DNA from: Aphrocallistes beatrix
Taxonomy: Eukaryota; Porifera; Hexactinellida; Sceptrulophora; Aphrocallistidae
Direction of reading: 5' to 3'
DNA: 64,000 bases
Assembly (NCBI GenBank): GCA_963281255.1
Contig: OY725502.1
Coordinates: 2,604,001-2,668,000, forward strand
Each line of letters starts with the position of its first letter. The stretch's first letter is position 1. Below the pieces are notes generated by a model. It saw nothing but the letters and a program-made list of their open reading frames with translations, had not been told where the DNA came from and made no database searches. The position numbers and the translations under genes were made by a program. Shown one piece after another: positions 37,895 through 49,859 of the stretch.

Positions 37895-38525
37895 TTACCT
37901 CTTTGTGCAGAATCAAATGAGATAGAGTATCAGAGACAGTCACCATATGGTTCCGCAATAGGGTATATTTGTGACAAATTTGGTTATTTTCAGAGGTTGT
38001 TTAAGGGCACTTCTAAGTGTTTTTATTATGAAACCTTTCGCATAGAACTGAGATGTGAATGAGTTGATACGAAAAATTTGGAATTTTTTCATGGAATGTT
38101 GCTACATTCCAGTGTTGCTATGGAAACATGTTTTGGTCAGTTGGGGTTATATCTTGAAAACTGCAATAGCTACATATTTAAATGTAATTCCATTTGATAG
38201 CGAATATACTACTTCCTATTAAGCGATAATATATTTTCGAAGTCTAAATTCAATGGTTTACGAGATATTCGACAAATTACCAAATATGACCAATATGATA
38301 AATTGTCTATTAACTCGTAGACCATTGAATTTAGACGTCGAAATTATATTATCGCTTAATAGGAAGTAGTATATTTTCTATCAAATGGAATTACATTCAA
38401 ATGTCTAGCTCTTGTGGTTTTCAAGATATGATCCCAACTGACCAAAACACGTTTCCATAGCAACACTGGAATGTAGCGACATTCCATTAAAAATTCCAAT
38501 TTTTTCCTATTAACCCATTCACGGG
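37895..38525. repeat. X-family palindrome, left part
   Basis: ACCATATGGTTCCGCAATAG through TTTCGCATAGAACTGAG, then a near-perfect hairpin whose arms (CTACTTCCTATTAAGCGATA and its inverse) pair around 38295. The remaining end lies at 45805-46095, beyond the two large insertions between. Confidence 0.75.
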
Positions 38526-38526
38526 C

Positions 38527-40327
38527 ATCATTCACTAAAGTTCTAAACTGAAATTCTTAGAATTTTTCTTAGTATCTAGCGAATTCTTAGAATTTTTCTT
38601 AGAATTTAGCGAATTCTTAGAATTTTCCTTAGAATTTAGCGAATTCTTAGAATTTTTCTTAAATCTAAGAATTATTCTTTGAATTATTTTAACGCTAGTA
38701 GAGGTATCCATAGTATTATGAAGTATAGGCAACTCTATAGTCATTCAGTATACACTATTGATATTAGGCACGTGGTTTTGTCTATAGTACTAGATAGTAT
38801 TTTTAGTAGCATCAAAATCATTGAATATTGCATGTGCTTGCTGCATTTTTTGGATTCCTAATTTTAGCTCCCATAGACGATAATACAACGCAAATAATTT
38901 TTCCTAAGGATTCACTAGTTGTTAGTTCTTATTTGAGCTTTGATTCTATTTCAATGTGATATTGTTCAACTAGTTATCGTTGGATTTTAGCTCTCCAGTA
39001 TTCAATATTCAAATTATTTAATTTTATTATCTATGAACGCCGATTTTCCCATTTTTTTTCATTTTTTTACATAAAAACCCCTCAATTTGAATTTATAGAA
39101 ATGATATTGAAATTTGGGCTCGATAGATGTCAAAAATGGACAATGCTATGCCTAAATAACACTAAATTAACTCTTCTATTAATAATTCCTTTAGCTCAAA
39201 ATTTTTTTTGAAATGTTACTTTTTCCAAAAATGAAATTTGAGAAAACAGAGAATAAACATTATATCTGCACTAATGCTTTGTAAGAGAGAACTATAAAGA
39301 ATTGGAAGATATACTTTCCATAAGAGTCTAAAATTCGAAATAAAGAAGTTTTATTAAGTACTAAGGTCGGTATTTAGCAAATATACAAAAATCCAGATTT
39401 TTGAAAAAATTTCTAAAAAATATTTAAGTAACCTCTACTAGCGTTAAGTGGTATTCACTAAAGTTCTAAACTGAAATTCTTAGAATTTTTCTTAGAATTT
39501 AGTGAATTCTTAGAATTTTTCTTAGAATTTAGCGGATTCTTAGAATTTTTCTTAAAACTAAGAATTATTCTTAGAATTATTTTAAGTGGTATTCACTAAA
39601 GTTCTAAAGTCAAATTCTTAGAATTTTTCTTAGAATTTGCCAAATTCTTAGAAAATCCTTGAATTCTAAGAAAAATTCTTAGAATGCATACGAATTCTAA
39701 GAGAATTTTTAAATGAGGTAGGAGGTTGACTTAAAGTCTTTCTAAATCGTTGAAGTTCGATTTTTTTAATATTAGCTAATTAATGATGAATAGAATGGGT
39801 GTCTCTTAAGGTATAGTTTACGTTGTTGGATACCGTTAGTTTCAGTAAAAAAACATTGGCTTTACTTTATGAAATGGTTAGGTGCAACGTCGTAACATCT
39901 ACGCCCTTCAGCTCTCCCCAATGTTGAAATTTGTAAAGGATTTTATCATATTAGCATCAACTTTAATTAATGTTTCAAGAAAATTTTAAAGATAGTATTC
40001 TATAAGAATTCTAAGAAAAAATGCGATTCTAAGAATTATTCTAAGAATTGATCAAATTCAAAGAATAATTCTTAGAATCCGTAAAGAATTTCAAGTTTAA
40101 GAATTCTATAAGGATTTTAAGAATTATTCTAAGAATTGATCAAATTTTAAGAATTATTCTAAGAATTAATCAAATTCTAAGAATAATTCTTAGAATCCGT
40201 AAAGAATTTGATGCCACATAATTCTTTATGAATTCTAAGAATTTCAAAGCAATTAATTCTAAGAAATATTCTTAGAATTGCACTTATAATTAAATTAAGA
40301 AAAATTCTAAGAACTTTAGTCAATGAG
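38527..40327. mobile_element. Element built of AATTCTTAGAATTTTTCTTAG repeats
   Basis: Left end ATTCACTAAAGTTCTAA and right end TTCTAAGAACTTTAGTCAAT are inverted. The body is an array of units such as GAATTCTTAGAATTTTTCTT, with inverted AAGAATAATTCTTAGAAT at 40020-40290. The left end sequence recurs at 39462 and 39593, implying internal duplication. Contains 38693-39443. No coding potential. Confidence 0.65.
38693..39443. mobile_element. Second TTAA-inserting element, CGCTAGTAGAGGT ends
   Basis: CGCTAGTAGAGGT and ACCTCTACTAGCG are perfect inverted ends between TTAA at 38689-38692 and 39444-39447. The uninterrupted ATTATTTTAAGTGGTATTC occurs at 39577-39593. Ends differ from the GGATACCGCC family. 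Confidence 0.85.
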
Positions 40328-40794
40328 GCCTGTTTCATCGTAACTTGACCCGCACCATGGATGTGCTACATCTATCTTAACTTGACCCGTATTAGAATGC
40401 ATTATATCTATCGTAACTTGACCCGCATTAAATGCATTATATCTATCGTAACTTGACCCACATCATAACAATAGTAGAGATATGCCTATCGTAACTTGAC
40501 CCGCATTAGAATGCAATATATCTATCGTAACTTGACCACAGCATAACAATAGTAGAGATATGCCTATCGTAACTTGACCCATCGTATTGTAATGCGTAAT
40601 ATTTATTGTAACTTGACCCCACATCACTATTATGTCAATATATGTTCTACATCCGTCATAATTTAGTGATTTTTGTAGTTTCAATAGTTACTTTTTTGTT
40701 TATTCTTGCATATGATTAAATTTTGTTTTCGTATAATTATACATACAACCCAAGCTTTTTCACGTAACTAGCTATTTCGTACGAGTATTCAGAG

Positions 40795-43700
40795 ATGGAG
40801 GATCTTGAATATAATAATTTACGTTTATTCTTATCCACCGGAATCTATCCCGTCGAGATACAGGAGAAACAGGGACCCAGATATGCGCAGAAAAATTTCC
40901 GAAGGAAGGCTTCTCACTTCCGTTTTGATGAAGATACACTCTACAAGGTGAGGAACCTGTTTAGTGTATTATAACGTTTAGTGTTAAAACATGTGCTCAT
41001 ATTGTTCATTCTACATTTCTACCCTCTTTGCCGAAGAATTTATTTGTCCTACTTTGGCACTTTGCCCCTGTAAAATCATACCGTTTGAGCTTTTCTAATT
41101 GCCGAGATGTCTCTGAAGTTTAAGATTAATCTATACAACCTGCATGTTCCTCAGGATACAGATATTTCATGACTGCATGCATTTATCGTGTATGAATCCA
41201 CTTATCTGGTGACAAAGTTGTATGTATTTCATATCCTTCATGCTAATTTGATTCATGTATAAATCGGATATTTTAACTGATCTAGTTTATACATCGTTGA
41301 GAAGCTCGTCCAAGCTGTGAGCTGCGCTATCAGTGTGCCAGACCGAAGTTTTTAATAAACATTATAGGTCATGACAACCGGATTATAAGTTTAATTAATT
41401 AAACCGCTCTCAGCAATAGTATTCGAACATAACAGTCTGATGGTCAAGAATCTCGTTATCAAAAATTAACTGTAGTGTCTCGTAACGTATGTAATAAAAT
41501 GTGCTATTTTTATCGAGTATTTATTATAGATCATTCGCAATAAAAGAGGTGTTTTTGAACGATTTGAATACCCACCTAGATCTGCTATCCCTAAGATTCT
41601 GGACAAATATCACGTCGATCACCCAGGCATTAATGCTATGACATCTTCGATTAGACAAAGGTATTTTTGGGATAAAATGTATCAGACTATCGAACAATAC
41701 GTAAGTTTGTTTCAAATAGTTTTCAGAAGCTTATTAGTAATATTCTCTCATTGTTTATCCCTGTAAACAGGTAAAATCTTGCCATTCTTGCCAGATCAAT
41801 TCAGCTAAGATCCCTCATCCTCACAGGGAACTCCAGCCCATAGTTCCACCTGAAAGACCTTGGCAGCATATAGGCATTGATCTGTTTACCGATATGCCAG
41901 ATAATGATTTGGGATACAAACATGTCCTTGTGATTGTTTGCTATCTCGTTGTTTCGTTGTTGCACGCCCTCTCAGAACAAAAACTTCTGCTGAAGTTGTT
42001 GCCGAGCTGTTGAGTGTTTATCTCCTGTTCGGTGTTCCTAAAATATGCCAGCATGACCAGGGTAAAGAATTCACGAGCAAGGTAGTATTTTGTGATTAGA
42101 TTATCCTCACTTTGAACTTTCCATTACATGATTTATATTTTGGTCAGAGTAGTACAAGTACGTACGTAGGTATTATGCCACTTTGTCAATTCCCACTTCG
42201 GCAACAGCTTACAATAAATGTCAAATTCAATTCCCATATCGTCAAAGTTGACTAAATGAGAATTGACAAAGTGGGAATAAATCATACAAACTTGCCATGA
42301 AGTTTCCAATAGTATTGATTTGACTTCTAGTAAGTGAAAAACCATGCAACGAAATGCTGTGTATGCCTCATGAATAATTTGTAAATATTTCAAAACAGCC
42401 GTAAATTGTTGCTTATACTATGTTGTGTTTTAAAGCATTTGCATTCTGTTATGATTACTTTCTCAGATTTTTACGTAACAAGTACAGATCATGATTCCTA
42501 CAGTATGATTTCATAACACTGTCATAAAACAGTGAAAACACTGATACGTATTTTTATTTTATTTATCACAAAACATCATTAATAATTCCCCCCAGGTATA
42601 GTCTAAAATTTCATTCGATTGCCTGTACCTGTGCCCATAGTTTTAAGATATTTACAAAAAGAATAAGAATTTTACTTAAATTTCTTAATAACATTACCCA
42701 ACTATCTTTCGCCTTATGATCAAGTAATTGTTCAACATCTTCAAGGAGTTCAATGCAATGCATCATGATCTTGGAGTAGATAACCGGCGTTCAAGTGCTT
42801 ATTACCCTCAAAGTAATGGCCTTGTGGAGGCGCACAACTAGATATTGAAGAGGTACTATGTTAAATAGTTATTTTGAAATATGTATATATGCACGTAATT
42901 ATTGTGTCAAGTATTCAATAGTTACTAGCAGCAGACTTGCCATTAAAGTATATTACGTGATAAATTGTATTGTACTGTATTGTACGAATTTGATGCATAT
43001 TTATTTACAGAAAAATTGAAAAACTTCGGCAAACTTCTGATGGATCTTGGCCAACAAAGCTACCGTTTGCAGTGATGGCTGCAAACACTAAGATCAAGCG
43101 CGCCACGAAATTTACATCTTTTGAACTTATGTTTGGCCGAAAATGTGATGCTATTCCTTTGCTTAATCTTAGCAGGAAGTTGTCTACATACCCTAGCGAA
43201 GAACCACAGTCATCAGAAAATGAGTCAATTATTAATGAGACTAGTTGACCCATTCGATATTGAAATGGAAGCAAATGATGATCTAGGTAGTGAAATGGAA
43301 TTCAATCGACATCAAAATGAATCTGAAGCTCGCGTAAACATCAAAATCGAGCAATCTACGCGAAAAATATTTATGATAAGAAGGTGAAGAAGAATAGGTA
43401 TATACGATAATTATATATAATCTCCTTATAACTAGCATTGTTGATATTTAATAATATGAAACCAATTTTGGAATTTAGTTCTAATATCCAAGAGGGGGAG
43501 CTGTTTTTGGTGCGAAACATCAGGAAAGATAAAAAGCTTCCAAATACATCGAAACAACTTAAATATACTGGTCCTTTCGAGGCAACAAAGGTAACAAAAA
43601 GTCATGTAGTCGCCATCAAAGATGAAACACAACGTATTGTTACCTATCCTCTTCACTTGTCTAAAAAGTATCGTCAGCGAAATCGAACTCCAGGTGAATG

Positions 43701-45243
43701 ACACTTGATCAATTAAGCATACCTTACCTTATAAAGTATAATATTAATATTTGTAGCCACTCAATAAGCAGTCTACTATAGTAGATGCACCAACAAATAC
43801 ACTTTTTCCATCTCGAGGAAAACCTTTGAAGAGAAAAAATACACACGTTTCATCTAATTCTGCTTCCAAGAGACCCAAGGTATAGTCCTATAGATTGATG
43901 CAAAATTCGATTCAATTAATTAGATCTTTGTATGATTTAACTAACAATCTTGTTAGGTGACGAATGTGAACGACGAACAGTATTTATTCGGTATTTCACG
44001 AGAATCAATAGTGGAAGAATTAAATCTGCTCAAAGTAAGTCAATTTAAGGTGTACAACTTATATAATAATTTTGTGAGTGAACCCCAGGACTTGATCTAA
44101 TTATTTTCTTTAAATATAGGATGATGTAATTAAGAAATTAAAAAACGAGGCGTTTATTTCGCAACTGCATGAATTACTTCATAACACACCGAACAGACAG
44201 ATGTGTCCAACGATTACTGTCCTATTCTCTGTTCTCAAAAATGTTACTCCATTCCAAATGGTTTGTTGCTATTATCTAATAATGTATAAAATGTTTCTGT
44301 GAATCAAATATAATCAGTTCAATTGTGTTTTAGAGAGAAGAGGTTATGAACATGCTTCTTCAGTGGACAGAAGAAGCTTTTACTAACAAATGTGATAACC
44401 CCACCATGCAGAGCCGACATTGTATCGAGTACGCACATAAGGTTCTATTCCCAGTTGTGAGTAAACATACTAACTATATCACGATCGTAGTCTGGTATGT
44501 AATTCTAAGTATATTTTCGTCTTTTATTCTTTCAGATTTGTGAACACCTGGAATCGGATTTGATTAACAAGAGATTTGCCTCCGCGACAGAAAATATGCC
44601 ATTCAGATTGCCAGCTTGCCCCAAATTAGGACCGTGCTATCATCCTATTACTGAGCAATGGCAAAAGGAGAAGTGTCAACTACTTGGGATTGCTTATGTT
44701 GAGAGCCTCGAACAACAACCAGCACTAGCCGGTTCTCTTCTGTCTCAGTTCATTCCGTGGCAGACTGAAAAGATTGGAATGGATGGGAATTGTTTCTTTA
44801 GGTGCATATCTAAGATGGTATCTGGTCCCGAAAACCACCATGTCAAGCTCAGAGCAGAATTGTGCAGATACATGGTAACGGATGGGAAATCAATCGTTAA
44901 CCGGTACCTTAAGACTTTCAGTAATGATAGATCTCCTGTGACATACTTAAAAACGTCAGCTATGACAGAAAATAATGTATGGGCTAGTGATGTCGAGGTG
45001 ATGGCCATTTCTTGCATGTTGGACTCGGACGTATTTATATCTACAGAACTGTATGATGCTACCAAACTCTGGACGCGAAAAATCTGGCATCGGTATTCTG
45101 ATCATGCCAGAGATCCAAATGCTATCTCCATCTACATATCCAACATTAATCACAATCATTACGAGCCAGTTATTCGCCTAATGAATTCGGAGTACGAATC
45201 ATTTAAGGTACCAGATGTTAGCAACAACTCAACGAATCACTGA
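40795..45243 (+). pseudogene. Integrase-OTU transposase gene, about 11 exons, inactivated
   Basis: Model by splice signals: exons 40795-40947, 41530-41700, 41771-42081, 42746-42851, 43011-43395, about 43436-43692, 43757-43879, 43957-44034, 44121-44260, 44334-44456, 44536-45243. Exons 2-3 encode an H2C2 zinc-binding motif (HVDHPGIN..CHSC). The integrase core follows with GIDLF (first Asp), QHDQGKEF (second Asp, exon 3) and SNGLVEAHN (Glu, exon 4). Exons 5-6 have the conserved tail (GELFLVRN, KYTGPFEATKV). The last exon is an OTU cysteine protease: DGNCFFRC with Cys at 44791-44793 and His in NHNHYEPV near 45151-45159. Lesions: frameshift near 41944, stop at 42839-42841, stop at 43245-43247 and a frame change near 43360. 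The OTU exon itself is intact. The role of OTU in the element is unknown. Confidence 0.8.
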
Positions 45244-45629
45244 AAATGAACTGTCGTGGGAACTGTTGGGTGTCATGGGGAAAACATACCTGTTTTTCAA
45301 TAGGGGCTCAGACCAGTTCTGGGTCTTACCCTAAGCCGGGTAACTGATGATGACCTATGGAGGGTCGAAACCTAGAACAACTGTCCAAGCACTATTCAAG
45401 CTTCTATCTTTCCAGTGTTTCTCAACACTAAATTATTTTGTTTATACGTATATGCATACTATATTATTATTAACAGAAATATTATTAATTAACAGAAATA
45501 ATACATGTAAAATTGGTGTGAAATTTTGTATATATGTCTATTTAGAAATCAAAGGTTGGGGCGCAAACCTGATATTCTGTTTTAATTAATAATTGTAAAT
45601 CTCGAATATCCGAGGTAATCACTCTAGTC
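45244..45629. other. 3-prime untranslated zone of the Ginger-like element
   Basis: AT-rich, no gene. Open frames here have no motif. Confidence 0.4.
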
Positions 45630-45804
45630 CACAAGTTACGATAGGCATAACTCTACTATTGTTATGCTGTGGTCAAGTTACGATAGATACAATGCATCCT
45701 AATGCGGGTCAAGTTACGATAGATATAATGCATTCTAATACGGGTCAAGTTACGATAGATGTAGCACATCCATGGTGCGGGTCAAGTTACGATGAAACAG
45801 GCCC

Positions 45805-46095
45805 CACATGTTCTACGCGAAAAATTTTATAATAAAAACAGAAGTGCCCTTAAACGACCTCTGAAAATCACCAAATTTGTCACGAATATACCCTATTCCG
45901 CAACCATATGGTGACTAATCTAAATTTTAACAACGGATAGGGGTATTTTGACACCATATTTATATATGCTGATAATACATTCCTAAACTCTATTGTGCTT
46001 TGTTAGGCAGCTCATGTATTAGTTCAACCATTTTCTACCGCATCCCTAGTCCCAAATTCGCAAGTTACTCTGAGGCCTTATTATAGTAGGCTATG
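45805..46095. repeat. X-family palindrome, right part
   Basis: TTCTACGCGAAAAATTTTA, AAACGACCTCTGAAAATCAC and TTCTACCGCATCCCTAGTCC are the reverse complement of the outer X arm. Completes the copy interrupted at 38525. Confidence 0.7.
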
Positions 46096-47700: not shown

Positions 47701-48764
47701 GTGCTCCAGTATGAATTCATTGGTGATCCAGAATGCGTGCCTTGGTTAATATAATTCGAATGCGTGCCCCGGTGTAATATAATAAGATTTCAATATAGAG
47801 CCTAGACAAACAAACAACAAGCACATAACAAAGGAGTTATAAAGTACGAATAGTAAATTACAGTAAAGTAGGGGTAAATCGCTGAACTTTTGTCGTCATT
47901 GACTTGCCTGACTGACTTGACAGTCGTTGAGTAGTACGTATTGTGCGTGCCTGTTGCTGGCCAACAGCCCTGAAACAAAGATTATGCAACGTTTCTCTTC
48001 CTTAGATCATAGACAAGTACATGAATCACGTAGCTCCTGGATGGATTGAACTTAGCAGGAATCTCAAAATAGAGTCCTTGAGTCTCGCCAGCACATTCAG
48101 TTGCAGAATCCATCTCGATCAACGCTTCGATAGTAAGCCTAATATGAATATGGAGTAACTTGGAGCAAACATTGGTCCTGATTCTCAATTATTTAATTAG
48201 AGAACGTTTCTCACATCCGAATTATTCTTGAACCATGGATAATAACATATAACTTCAGAAAGATTATATTAAATCATTTGATTCATCATAAATATAAATC
48301 TGATGAAGGTTAAACTCCAAATTTATAATAACCTAATTACCATCCCTTTTTTAATCTTTAGCGATGAAAAAAGATCCAGCGCTAGAAAATTTATTTTGTC
48401 CTACAAAAATAATAGTCTAGCAAACGGCAGCGTTTTAAAATGGATTGTATACATATAATATCATTTAAAACACTTCCCATATTTGAATATTTATAAATAC
48501 TAATCACATACGTAGTCCCTTATATTTTTACTTTGGATGATAATGGATCAATCGAAGGTAGTATCAGAGTTGATTGATTGATCTCAATTTTATTTCTTAT
48601 ATTCCTAAACTCAATTTCCCTTTTAATAAATTGGTTAAATATTTAATTGCTAATGATAATATTCATCCCTTTTTCCCAACATCTTATGATTACTAAATTT
48701 TGTTACTGTTTATATAATTCTAGGAATTGATTCATGCGATATATTCATTTACGCTCAGTATTTG
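47701..48764. other. Intergenic DNA upstream of the kelch gene
   Basis: No gene recognised. From 48240 the sequence becomes markedly AT-rich without any of the repeat families, suggesting that the real promoter region lies at about 48250-48764. Confidence 0.35.
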
Positions 48765-49859
48765 ATGGCTAGTAATACACCTTTGAATTTGGATGGAGAA
48801 CTTGGTGAAAAATCTAGTACTTTCGAATTTTCCCTCGAATCTCTTCCTGATCTTCCTGCTCCCCGTGTATATTGCTCACTTCTAACAATTGATGACCAAA
48901 TATTTGTTTTCGGTGGTTGTGATTCAACTGGTAAGTCATTGAACAATGTTTTTGTATATTCCTCTACTCTAAAAGTATGGACCGAGTGGCCTGTTATGAT
49001 TCGAAATCGTTCTGGTTCAACCGCCGTACACTCAAATGGTTTGATAATTTTAATTGGTGGAATAGATGAAAAACAGTCTGCTATTATTGATATTGATTGT
49101 TTAAACTCAAAGACTAAGTTATGGAGCCGAATTAGTGCTCTTCCAACTGCAGTTGTTGGATGTGGAGTGTGTATTAATAACAATCGGATATATGTAGTTG
49201 GCGGCGCAACAACTGAAAATGTTTCTCAATCCCTGTTTGGGTACTTTGATTTATCAAGTTATGATTGGGTTTCTTTACAGAATCTTCCAACTCCAAGATA
49301 TGCAATAACCACTTATATTTTCAATGATTCATTGATTGTTATTGGGGGCAGAGATATTCTGAAAGCAATGGTTGAAGTTGAAGCTTATGATCTTATCGAT
49401 CAATGTTGGAGAAAATTAGCGGCTATTCCTAGCAGAAGGGCATATGCTTGTACCCTTGGATTTGATCAATATATTTACCATGTTGGTGGCGTAAGTGAAG
49501 GTGTTGGAACTTGGAAACCTAATGTTAGAAAGTTGGTAGAACGTTTTGATATAATACATAATAGTTGGACAAAGCTGAAACCTTTAAAATTGAGAAGAAC
49601 TGATTTCTCTGCATGTATTTTTAAAGATAACTTGATCGTTGCCGGTGGAGTGTCCGAACAAAATGAACAAATGGTCCCTATTTCTGATTCAGAAAATTAT
49701 GTCATGTTAGATAATAAATGGGAATCCGTAGCTAATTTATCAATTCCTAGGTGCAGTATGGCTAATTGTGCATTTTACGATGGGCTTCTTATCATAGGTG
49801 GGATGGGACCAGGAGGGCCGCAAAAAAAAGTCGAAATTATCAAATCGACATCATCATAA
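48765..49859 (+). CDS. klhdc8: Kelch-repeat protein, KLHDC8-like
   Basis: The ATG at 48765 (ATGGCTAGTAAT) opens 364 codons without introns; vertebrate KLHDC8A/B have about 350-354. Seven double-Gly kelch strands are visible (FVFGGCD, ILIGGID, YVVGGAT, IVIGGRD, YHVGGVS, IVAGGVS, LIIGGMG), each followed by a downstream Trp, predicting one seven-bladed beta-propeller. There is no BTB or BACK domain, so it is not a Cullin-3 adaptor of the KLHL type. Family-specific phrases APRVYCSLL, LPTPRYAITT and LRRTDFSACIF agree with KLHDC8. KLHDC8B is known at the cytokinetic midbody; a similar role here is inference. An in-frame TTG three bases earlier is not a likely start. Confidence 0.9.
   Translation: MASNTPLNLDGELGEKSSTFEFSLESLPDLPAPRVYCSLLTIDDQIFVFGGCDSTGKSLNNVFVYSSTLKVWTEWPVMIRNRSGSTAVHSNGLIILIGGIDEKQSAIIDIDCLNSKTKLWSRISALPTAVVGCGVCINNNRIYVVGGATTENVSQSLFGYFDLSSYDWVSLQNLPTPRYAITTYIFNDSLIVIGGRDILKAMVEVEAYDLIDQCWRKLAAIPSRRAYACTLGFDQYIYHVGGVSEGVGTWKPNVRKLVERFDIIHNSWTKLKPLKLRRTDFSACIFKDNLIVAGGVSEQNEQMVPISDSENYVMLDNKWESVANLSIPRCSMANCAFYDGLLIIGGMGPGGPQKKVEIIKSTSS

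Follow-up and report, generated by a model that had tools for sequence, protein, structure and literature searches.

The element at 40,328 to 45,802 of the window, by which we mean the whole 64,000-nucleotide stretch of the Aphrocallistes beatrix genome that was analysed, is very probably an OTU-carrying DNA transposon of the Ginger1 type, complete in structure but dead, that has drifted neutrally since its insertion. This result removes a candidate for host co-option and shows the usual transposon life cycle, in which selection preserves the OTU between lineages, while in dead copies it is free to drift. The original prediction had placed a Ginger-like element with many introns and an OTU domain at its end here. 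Its location was right within a few bases, and its anatomy was borne out by the domain order, the ten GT-AG introns, and the match of the last exon to the OTU profile (PF02338, 1e-9).

Structure of the element and its gene

The element is complete and carries one gene on the + strand between two inverted repeats. Its ends are TGTTTC...GAAACA with GGCC flanking both sides, and the left and right ends showed 1 mismatch in the outer 103 nt; between the arms at 40324-40430 and 45700-45806 the complementarity was 98%, with the palindromic GGCC of the target duplication counted in. The repeats are near-identical over the outer 103-107 nt and, when the subrepeats are included, reach up to about 290 nt (left) and 170 nt (right), which fits the Ginger1 range of about 40-270 bp. 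Units of about 36 bp with the core ATCGTAACTTGACC were present in both inverted repeats and are likely to be binding sites of the transposase. The gene consists of 11 exons, in which H2C2, DDE, and GPF parts are followed by a C-terminal OTU exon, and all ten predicted introns have GT-AG ends. The features are as follows.

40324..40327, no strand: left copy of the 4-bp target site duplication, GGCC (sequence)
40328..40620, +: left terminal inverted repeat, TGTTTC terminus and array of about 36-bp subrepeats with ATCGTAACTTGACC (self-comparison; 1 mismatch against the right end over the outer 103 nt)
40795..40947, +: e1, the first exon, whose YP-containing stretch precedes the zinc finger (copy and relative alignments)
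41530..41700, +: e2, H2C2 zinc-binding domain (Pfam PF17921, 5.5e-12)
41771..42081, +: e3, integrase core with the first two catalytic D, one private frameshift (copy alignments; Pfam)
42746..42852, +: e4, integrase core with the catalytic E by position; a single private in-frame stop (copy alignment)
43011..43397, +: e5, integrase C-terminal part, two frameshifts (copy alignments; no Pfam match)
43479..43693, +: e6, GPY/F-type motif (KYTGPF), one frameshift near the 3' end (copy alignments; no Pfam match)
43757..43879, +: e7, basic lysine-rich linker exon, 0 lesions (copy alignment)
43957..44034, +: e8, linker exon, 0 lesions (copy and relative alignments)
44120..44260, +: e9, linker exon, 0 lesions (copy and relative alignments)
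44334..44456, +: e10, linker exon, 0 lesions (copy and relative alignments)
44536..45243, +: e11, exon of the OTU cysteine protease, stop codon included, with the D and C of DGNC and the H of NHYEP (PF02338, 1e-9; OTUD1 4bop, 8e-5; alignments)
45632..45802, -: right terminal inverted repeat, 36-bp subrepeats, terminus GAAACA (repeat comparison)
45803..45806, no strand: right copy of the target site duplication, GGCC (sequence)

The Pfam scan covered ten pieces of exons e1-e3, e5-e7, and e9-e11, and its notable matches were PF17921 in e2 and PF02338 in e11. The integrase core of e3 is broken in the window copy, the first piece giving no match to the rve profile and the second a weak one (E 0.034); the open e3 exon of a relative, L021, matched rve at 3e-8 and the prototype foamy virus (PFV) integrase at 3e-7. 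The KYTGPF motif of e6 was recognised by eye. In e1, YP is followed by spaced F/Y, and this stretch may correspond to the YPYY motif of Ginger1.

The OTU exon (44536-45243) is a single open frame of 235 codons and a stop, with both DGNCFFRC and NHNHYEP. Its catalytic residues D83, C86, and H208 were all invariant in a five-sequence alignment and would represent the catalytic Asp, Cys, and His of OTU cysteine proteases. In an alignment of 11 sequences, H208 was invariant, D83 was altered in L019 and L020, and C86 in L018. AlphaFold2 with the 11-row alignment gave a mean pLDDT of 37 for the OTU exon, too low to judge the geometry of these residues.

From the exon order in the window copy and its relatives, the source element is expected to have encoded one spliced protein in which a linker joined an integrase-like transposase to an OTU deubiquitinase domain. 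The transposase would recognise the repeat-rich ends, and the GGCC on either side shows an insertion into GGCC, giving the 4-bp duplication. The most likely role of the OTU would be to trim ubiquitin, either off the transposase itself or off repair factors acting where the element inserts. Neutral drift after insertion would then have left five lesions in the integrase half and, by chance and youth, none in the OTU half, and the window copy would be mobile only if an intact relative supplied the transposase.

The surroundings of the element were also inspected. Dense repeats like AATTCTTAGAATTTTTCTTAGAAT occupy 38500-40300 of the window, to the left of the element, and an unbroken 389-aa kelch-repeat open frame lies at 48690-49859 (+).

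Copies and relatives in the genome

A DNA search with the whole element gave at least 107 matches (40 of 111 candidates scored), and a search of the genome with the OTU protein gave at least 154 places (150 of 441 candidates scored). Among the DNA matches, the window subfamily is represented by pieces of eight copies that are 94-97% identical, namely the window copy, C16a, C18a, C18b, C1, C10, C11, and C13. Among 21 further loci, those with several exons follow the exon order of the window copy, except for extra matches in L023, L028, and L038; many of the 21 are without some exons, L017 having e11 only and L027 having no exon that could be found.

By the OTU part (e9-e11) the window copy joins the L022 group with a support of 0.93, whereas by the integrase the L022 group joins L021/L029 with a support of 0.90. 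This conflict between the trees hints that the two halves may recombine between subfamilies.

Two loci, L016 and L020, with OTU exons and with e1-e6 not found, were considered as an amplified OTU-only element. This was rejected because more than 4 kb at 99% identity extends past the element end, which points to segmental duplication rather than two separate transpositions. Within this duplicated segment, a minisatellite with a 45-bp unit, several hundred bases to more than 1 kb long, precedes the OTU exons. Separately, the left flanks of C1 and C13 resemble each other at 90% over about 235 bp, up to the insertion point in either copy, which suggests that a target may have been reused. On viral contigs, six pattern matches were obtained, none of them related to the element, and three contig ends contained no simple telomere repeat in their outermost 180 nt.

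Target preference and termini

The 4-bp target duplication was GGCC in the window copy and GTCC, GGTC, and GGCC in other copies, the ends of C1 differing by one base; in relatives it was GGAC, GATC, and GATC, with an apparently 5-bp duplication at L037. The exact terminal 19-mer pattern occurred 68 times in the genome and its reversed control 0 times. GNNC preceded 53 of these 68 termini against about 2 expected by an estimate at 35% G+C, the 68 being not all independent since both ends of an element and duplicated segments count separately. In none of the 68 exact termini was CCGG, CCGT, ACGG, or ACGT (MCGK) found before the terminus. TGTTTC was seen at both window ends and at most of the other ends inspected in copies and relatives, and the left end of C10 was altered. 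Compared with the TGTNR terminus of Ginger1, TGT is kept and the fifth base is T; the 19-mer pattern itself demanded TGTTT and hence is no separate test of the terminus.

Close inverted termini of the element type were observed at C6:451863-452067, C19:2235058-2235888, and C2:7415330-7416972, the C19 and C2 pairs being flanked by GNNC. These pairs are probably short non-autonomous derivatives.

Among the papers listed on Ginger1 with TSD/integrase or on transposon OTU, no title or abstract opening mentions a GNNC target. A GNNC preference would show that Ginger1-type elements are able to change their target specificity. A duplication other than CCGG/CCGT and a terminus of TGTTT in place of TGTNR could alternatively mark a fragment of Ginger2/Tdd, GingerRoot, or a Gypsy LTR element, but this is highly improbable: Ginger2 is without GPY/F and targets AT-rich RTATAY (PMC2836005) and GingerRoot has 6-bp duplications and mostly TA..TA ends (IS481EU paper, PMC10045372), and a Gypsy LTR origin is opposed by the inverted ends and by the lack of any reverse transcriptase match among the ten exon pieces of the Pfam scan (from e1-e3, e5-e7, and e9-e11). 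Judged by its anatomy, the element is of the Ginger1 type; we call it a variant and not a plain member because neither its target sequence nor its terminus agrees with Ginger1 as published.

Lesions in the window copy and its siblings

The private lesions of the window copy were frameshifts in e3 (one), e5 (two), and e6 (one) and a stop in e4, and e7-e11 contained none. Damage to the integrase exons next to a clean OTU exon had been noted before; both the four frameshifts plus one stop in e3-e6 and the open OTU frame agreed with this, and the clean part had been understated, since e7-e10 are lesion-free too. No other copy covering the same place has any of these lesions in common with the window copy, and C13 has a different indel at one e5 site.

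In the siblings, the OTU exon has a stop in C18a and deletions of 1 nt in C10 and 7 nt in C11; it is thus broken in three of the seven copies having it and open in four. Within e7-e10, C18a has lost 2 nt, C1 has a stop, and C16a has lost 31 nt and also carries a deletion at an acceptor. A manual count for the seven copies with both halves gave 25 lesions, 18 in e1-e6, 4 in e7-e10, and 3 in e11; C13, with a frameshift in e3 and no OTU half in its stretch, was left out.

For the window copy, the probability that all five lesions fall in e1-e6 was 0.044, which counts against the neutral reading, and that none falls in e11 was 0.19 by lesion placement. The numbers of indels and substitutions that this copy carries likewise gave a probability of about 0.19 for an OTU exon without lesions. 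Together with the neutral rates described below, this value supports the view, one of two offered in the original prediction, that decay has been too recent to have hit the OTU exon.

Over the seven copies, the OTU half (e7-e11) contained 7 of the 25 lesions against 11.6 expected by length (p = 0.07, non-significant), and e11 alone 3 against 7.0 (p = 0.08). This weak deficit and the open OTU exon in four of the seven copies would also be seen if the OTU half were kept open in several copies, with an OTU-only protein from dead copies helping living ones to move in trans. We consider this very unlikely. The deficit was slight without the window copy (7 lesions seen, 9.3 expected, p = 0.37), three of the seven exons are broken, and dN/dS over the copies was 0.97. 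Furthermore, the copies were first sought by their OTU, which biases the sample toward OTU keepers, although the DNA search added only C13, which is without OTU.

Selection on the OTU and integrase exons

Within the subfamily, only changes private to one copy were used, and the neutral expectation was taken from the noncoding spectrum. The integrase exons had 44 nonsynonymous (N) and 13 synonymous (S) private changes (omega 0.98) and the OTU exon 26 N and 8 S (omega 0.97); these counts did not differ (Fisher p = 1). The values for e7-e10 were 19 N and 3 S (omega 1.86, p = 0.45). Private substitution rates were 0.0071 in the integrase, 0.0081 in the OTU, and 0.0090 in noncoding sequence, the OTU rate being close to the noncoding one. 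The comparison of dN/dS between the OTU and integrase exons, which had been proposed as a check, accordingly gave equal neutral decay in both parts, the outcome named beforehand as speaking against constraint.

Between subfamilies, the median omega was 0.149 for the integrase and 0.168 for the OTU in the 28 of 64 pairs with usable dS in both parts, the other 36 having been dropped because dS was saturated. The OTU value was above the integrase value in 17 of the 28, and among them a few closely related pairs reached omega values around 1 or higher, which is what dead copies should show. Purifying selection between subfamilies and neutrality within one indicate that the OTU, like the integrase, is conserved in active elements and begins to drift once a copy has inserted. 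The OTU is thus shown, roughly, to be a working part of the transposon, conserved along with the integrase between subfamilies.

The other view in the original prediction, that the OTU exon is under constraint and could be co-opted, was not supported. Co-option of the OTU exons of the window copy by the host as a stand-alone deubiquitinase would accord with e7-e11 being lesion-free and keeping their splice sites while e3-e6 hold five lesions, and domestication of Ginger1 integrases is documented for Gin-1/Gin-2 (PMC2836005) and Imagin (PMC12863088). It was rejected, however, on the neutral substitution pattern and on the OTU lesions in sibling copies, and is extremely unlikely: the OTU exon of the window copy by itself had 4 N and 1 S private changes, where neutrality gives 0.77 N; the intact ends and duplication, with 1 mismatch in 103 between the inverted repeats, point to a transposon that inserted recently rather than to a long-established gene; and the e6 frameshift may leave e7-e11 without a start or promoter. 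Weak constraint may act on the window copy alone, its OTU branch having only five private substitutions. Purifying selection after the loss of mobility, as expected of a co-opted host gene, was not seen, the changes on the window branch alone being few.

A second carrier of a related OTU module

Pfam matches to OTU numbered at least 149 in the 100-Mb genome (150 of 263 candidates scored), which is a heavy load. Two long open frames were found among the OTU-containing loci, one of 1041 aa at L043 (C4; 881-4006, -) and one of 1102 aa at L044 (C8; 658-3966, -), and in each the only Pfam match at 0.001 was a C-terminal OTU. The 4.2 kb of L043 occurred at four places with 100% identity, its own place counted, and repeated ends in opposite orientation surround it; from this identity, the L043 element has probably been active recently. 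The two proteins are alike over most of their length (32%). Their N-terminal parts matched no Pfam family above its cut-off, and that of L043 had no PDB match. By eye, both contain spaced D, D, C-x2-H, and E, which we take to be the arrangement in Mutator-like transposases. The second carrier is a probable DDE transposase of another superfamily, unrelated to the Ginger1-type element.

The OTU blocks of L043 and L044 align with the window OTU from P37/W42/Q43/C47 onward at 27-28% identity. The window OTU matched the L043 place at 2.8e-21, and the L044 place was absent among the matches listed. We tentatively propose that the OTU unit with its upstream W-Q-x-x-x-C may be a mobile accessory module that unrelated transposons exchanged or separately acquired and that selection keeps. 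With at least 149 OTU matches and two or more unrelated element types that carry related modules, this genome is a rich system for the roles of deubiquitinases in transposons.

Comparison with known systems

Host genes derived from Ginger1 (Gin-1, Gin-2, and Imagin) have the same transposase ancestry as the window element and several introns. They keep the integrase-like part, whereas the window element has a broken integrase between intact repeats; Imagin is described as being under purifying selection and without inverted repeats (PMC12863088).

The catalytic core of the window OTU matched the cellular OTUs OTUD1 (8e-5), OTUD3 (0.006), and OTUD5 (0.056), but differs from them in being fused to a transposase. 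The two best Pfam-OTU places in the genome, C17:1229956 and C10:4036037, did not appear among the relatives listed for the window OTU.

Ginger2/Tdd elements resemble the window element in having an integrase-like transposase, inverted repeats, and a 4-5 bp duplication, and differ in being without GPY/F and YPYY and in their AT-rich target (PMC2836005).

The closest likeness in domain order is to Ginger1 transposases with a C-terminal OTU or Ulp1, which were described in 2010 with 0-4 introns. The OTU carriers among them are Ginger1-1,2,3,11_HM, Ginger1-1_AC, and two aphid families; the Ginger1 targets are CCGG (75%) or CCGT/ACGG (24%), and the OTU/Ulp1 proteases were proposed to act in transposition, e.g., on DNA repair (Bao et al. 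2010, PMC2836005). In common with these elements, the window family has an H2C2, DDE, and GPY/F integrase followed by a C-terminal OTU, inverted repeats, a 4-bp duplication, TG..CA ends, and a gene with introns, which Ginger1 genes often have. Ginger1-OTU elements have thus been known since 2010; what differs here is the GNNC target in place of CCGG/CCGT, the terminus TGTTT in place of TGTNR, and ten introns in place of 0-4.
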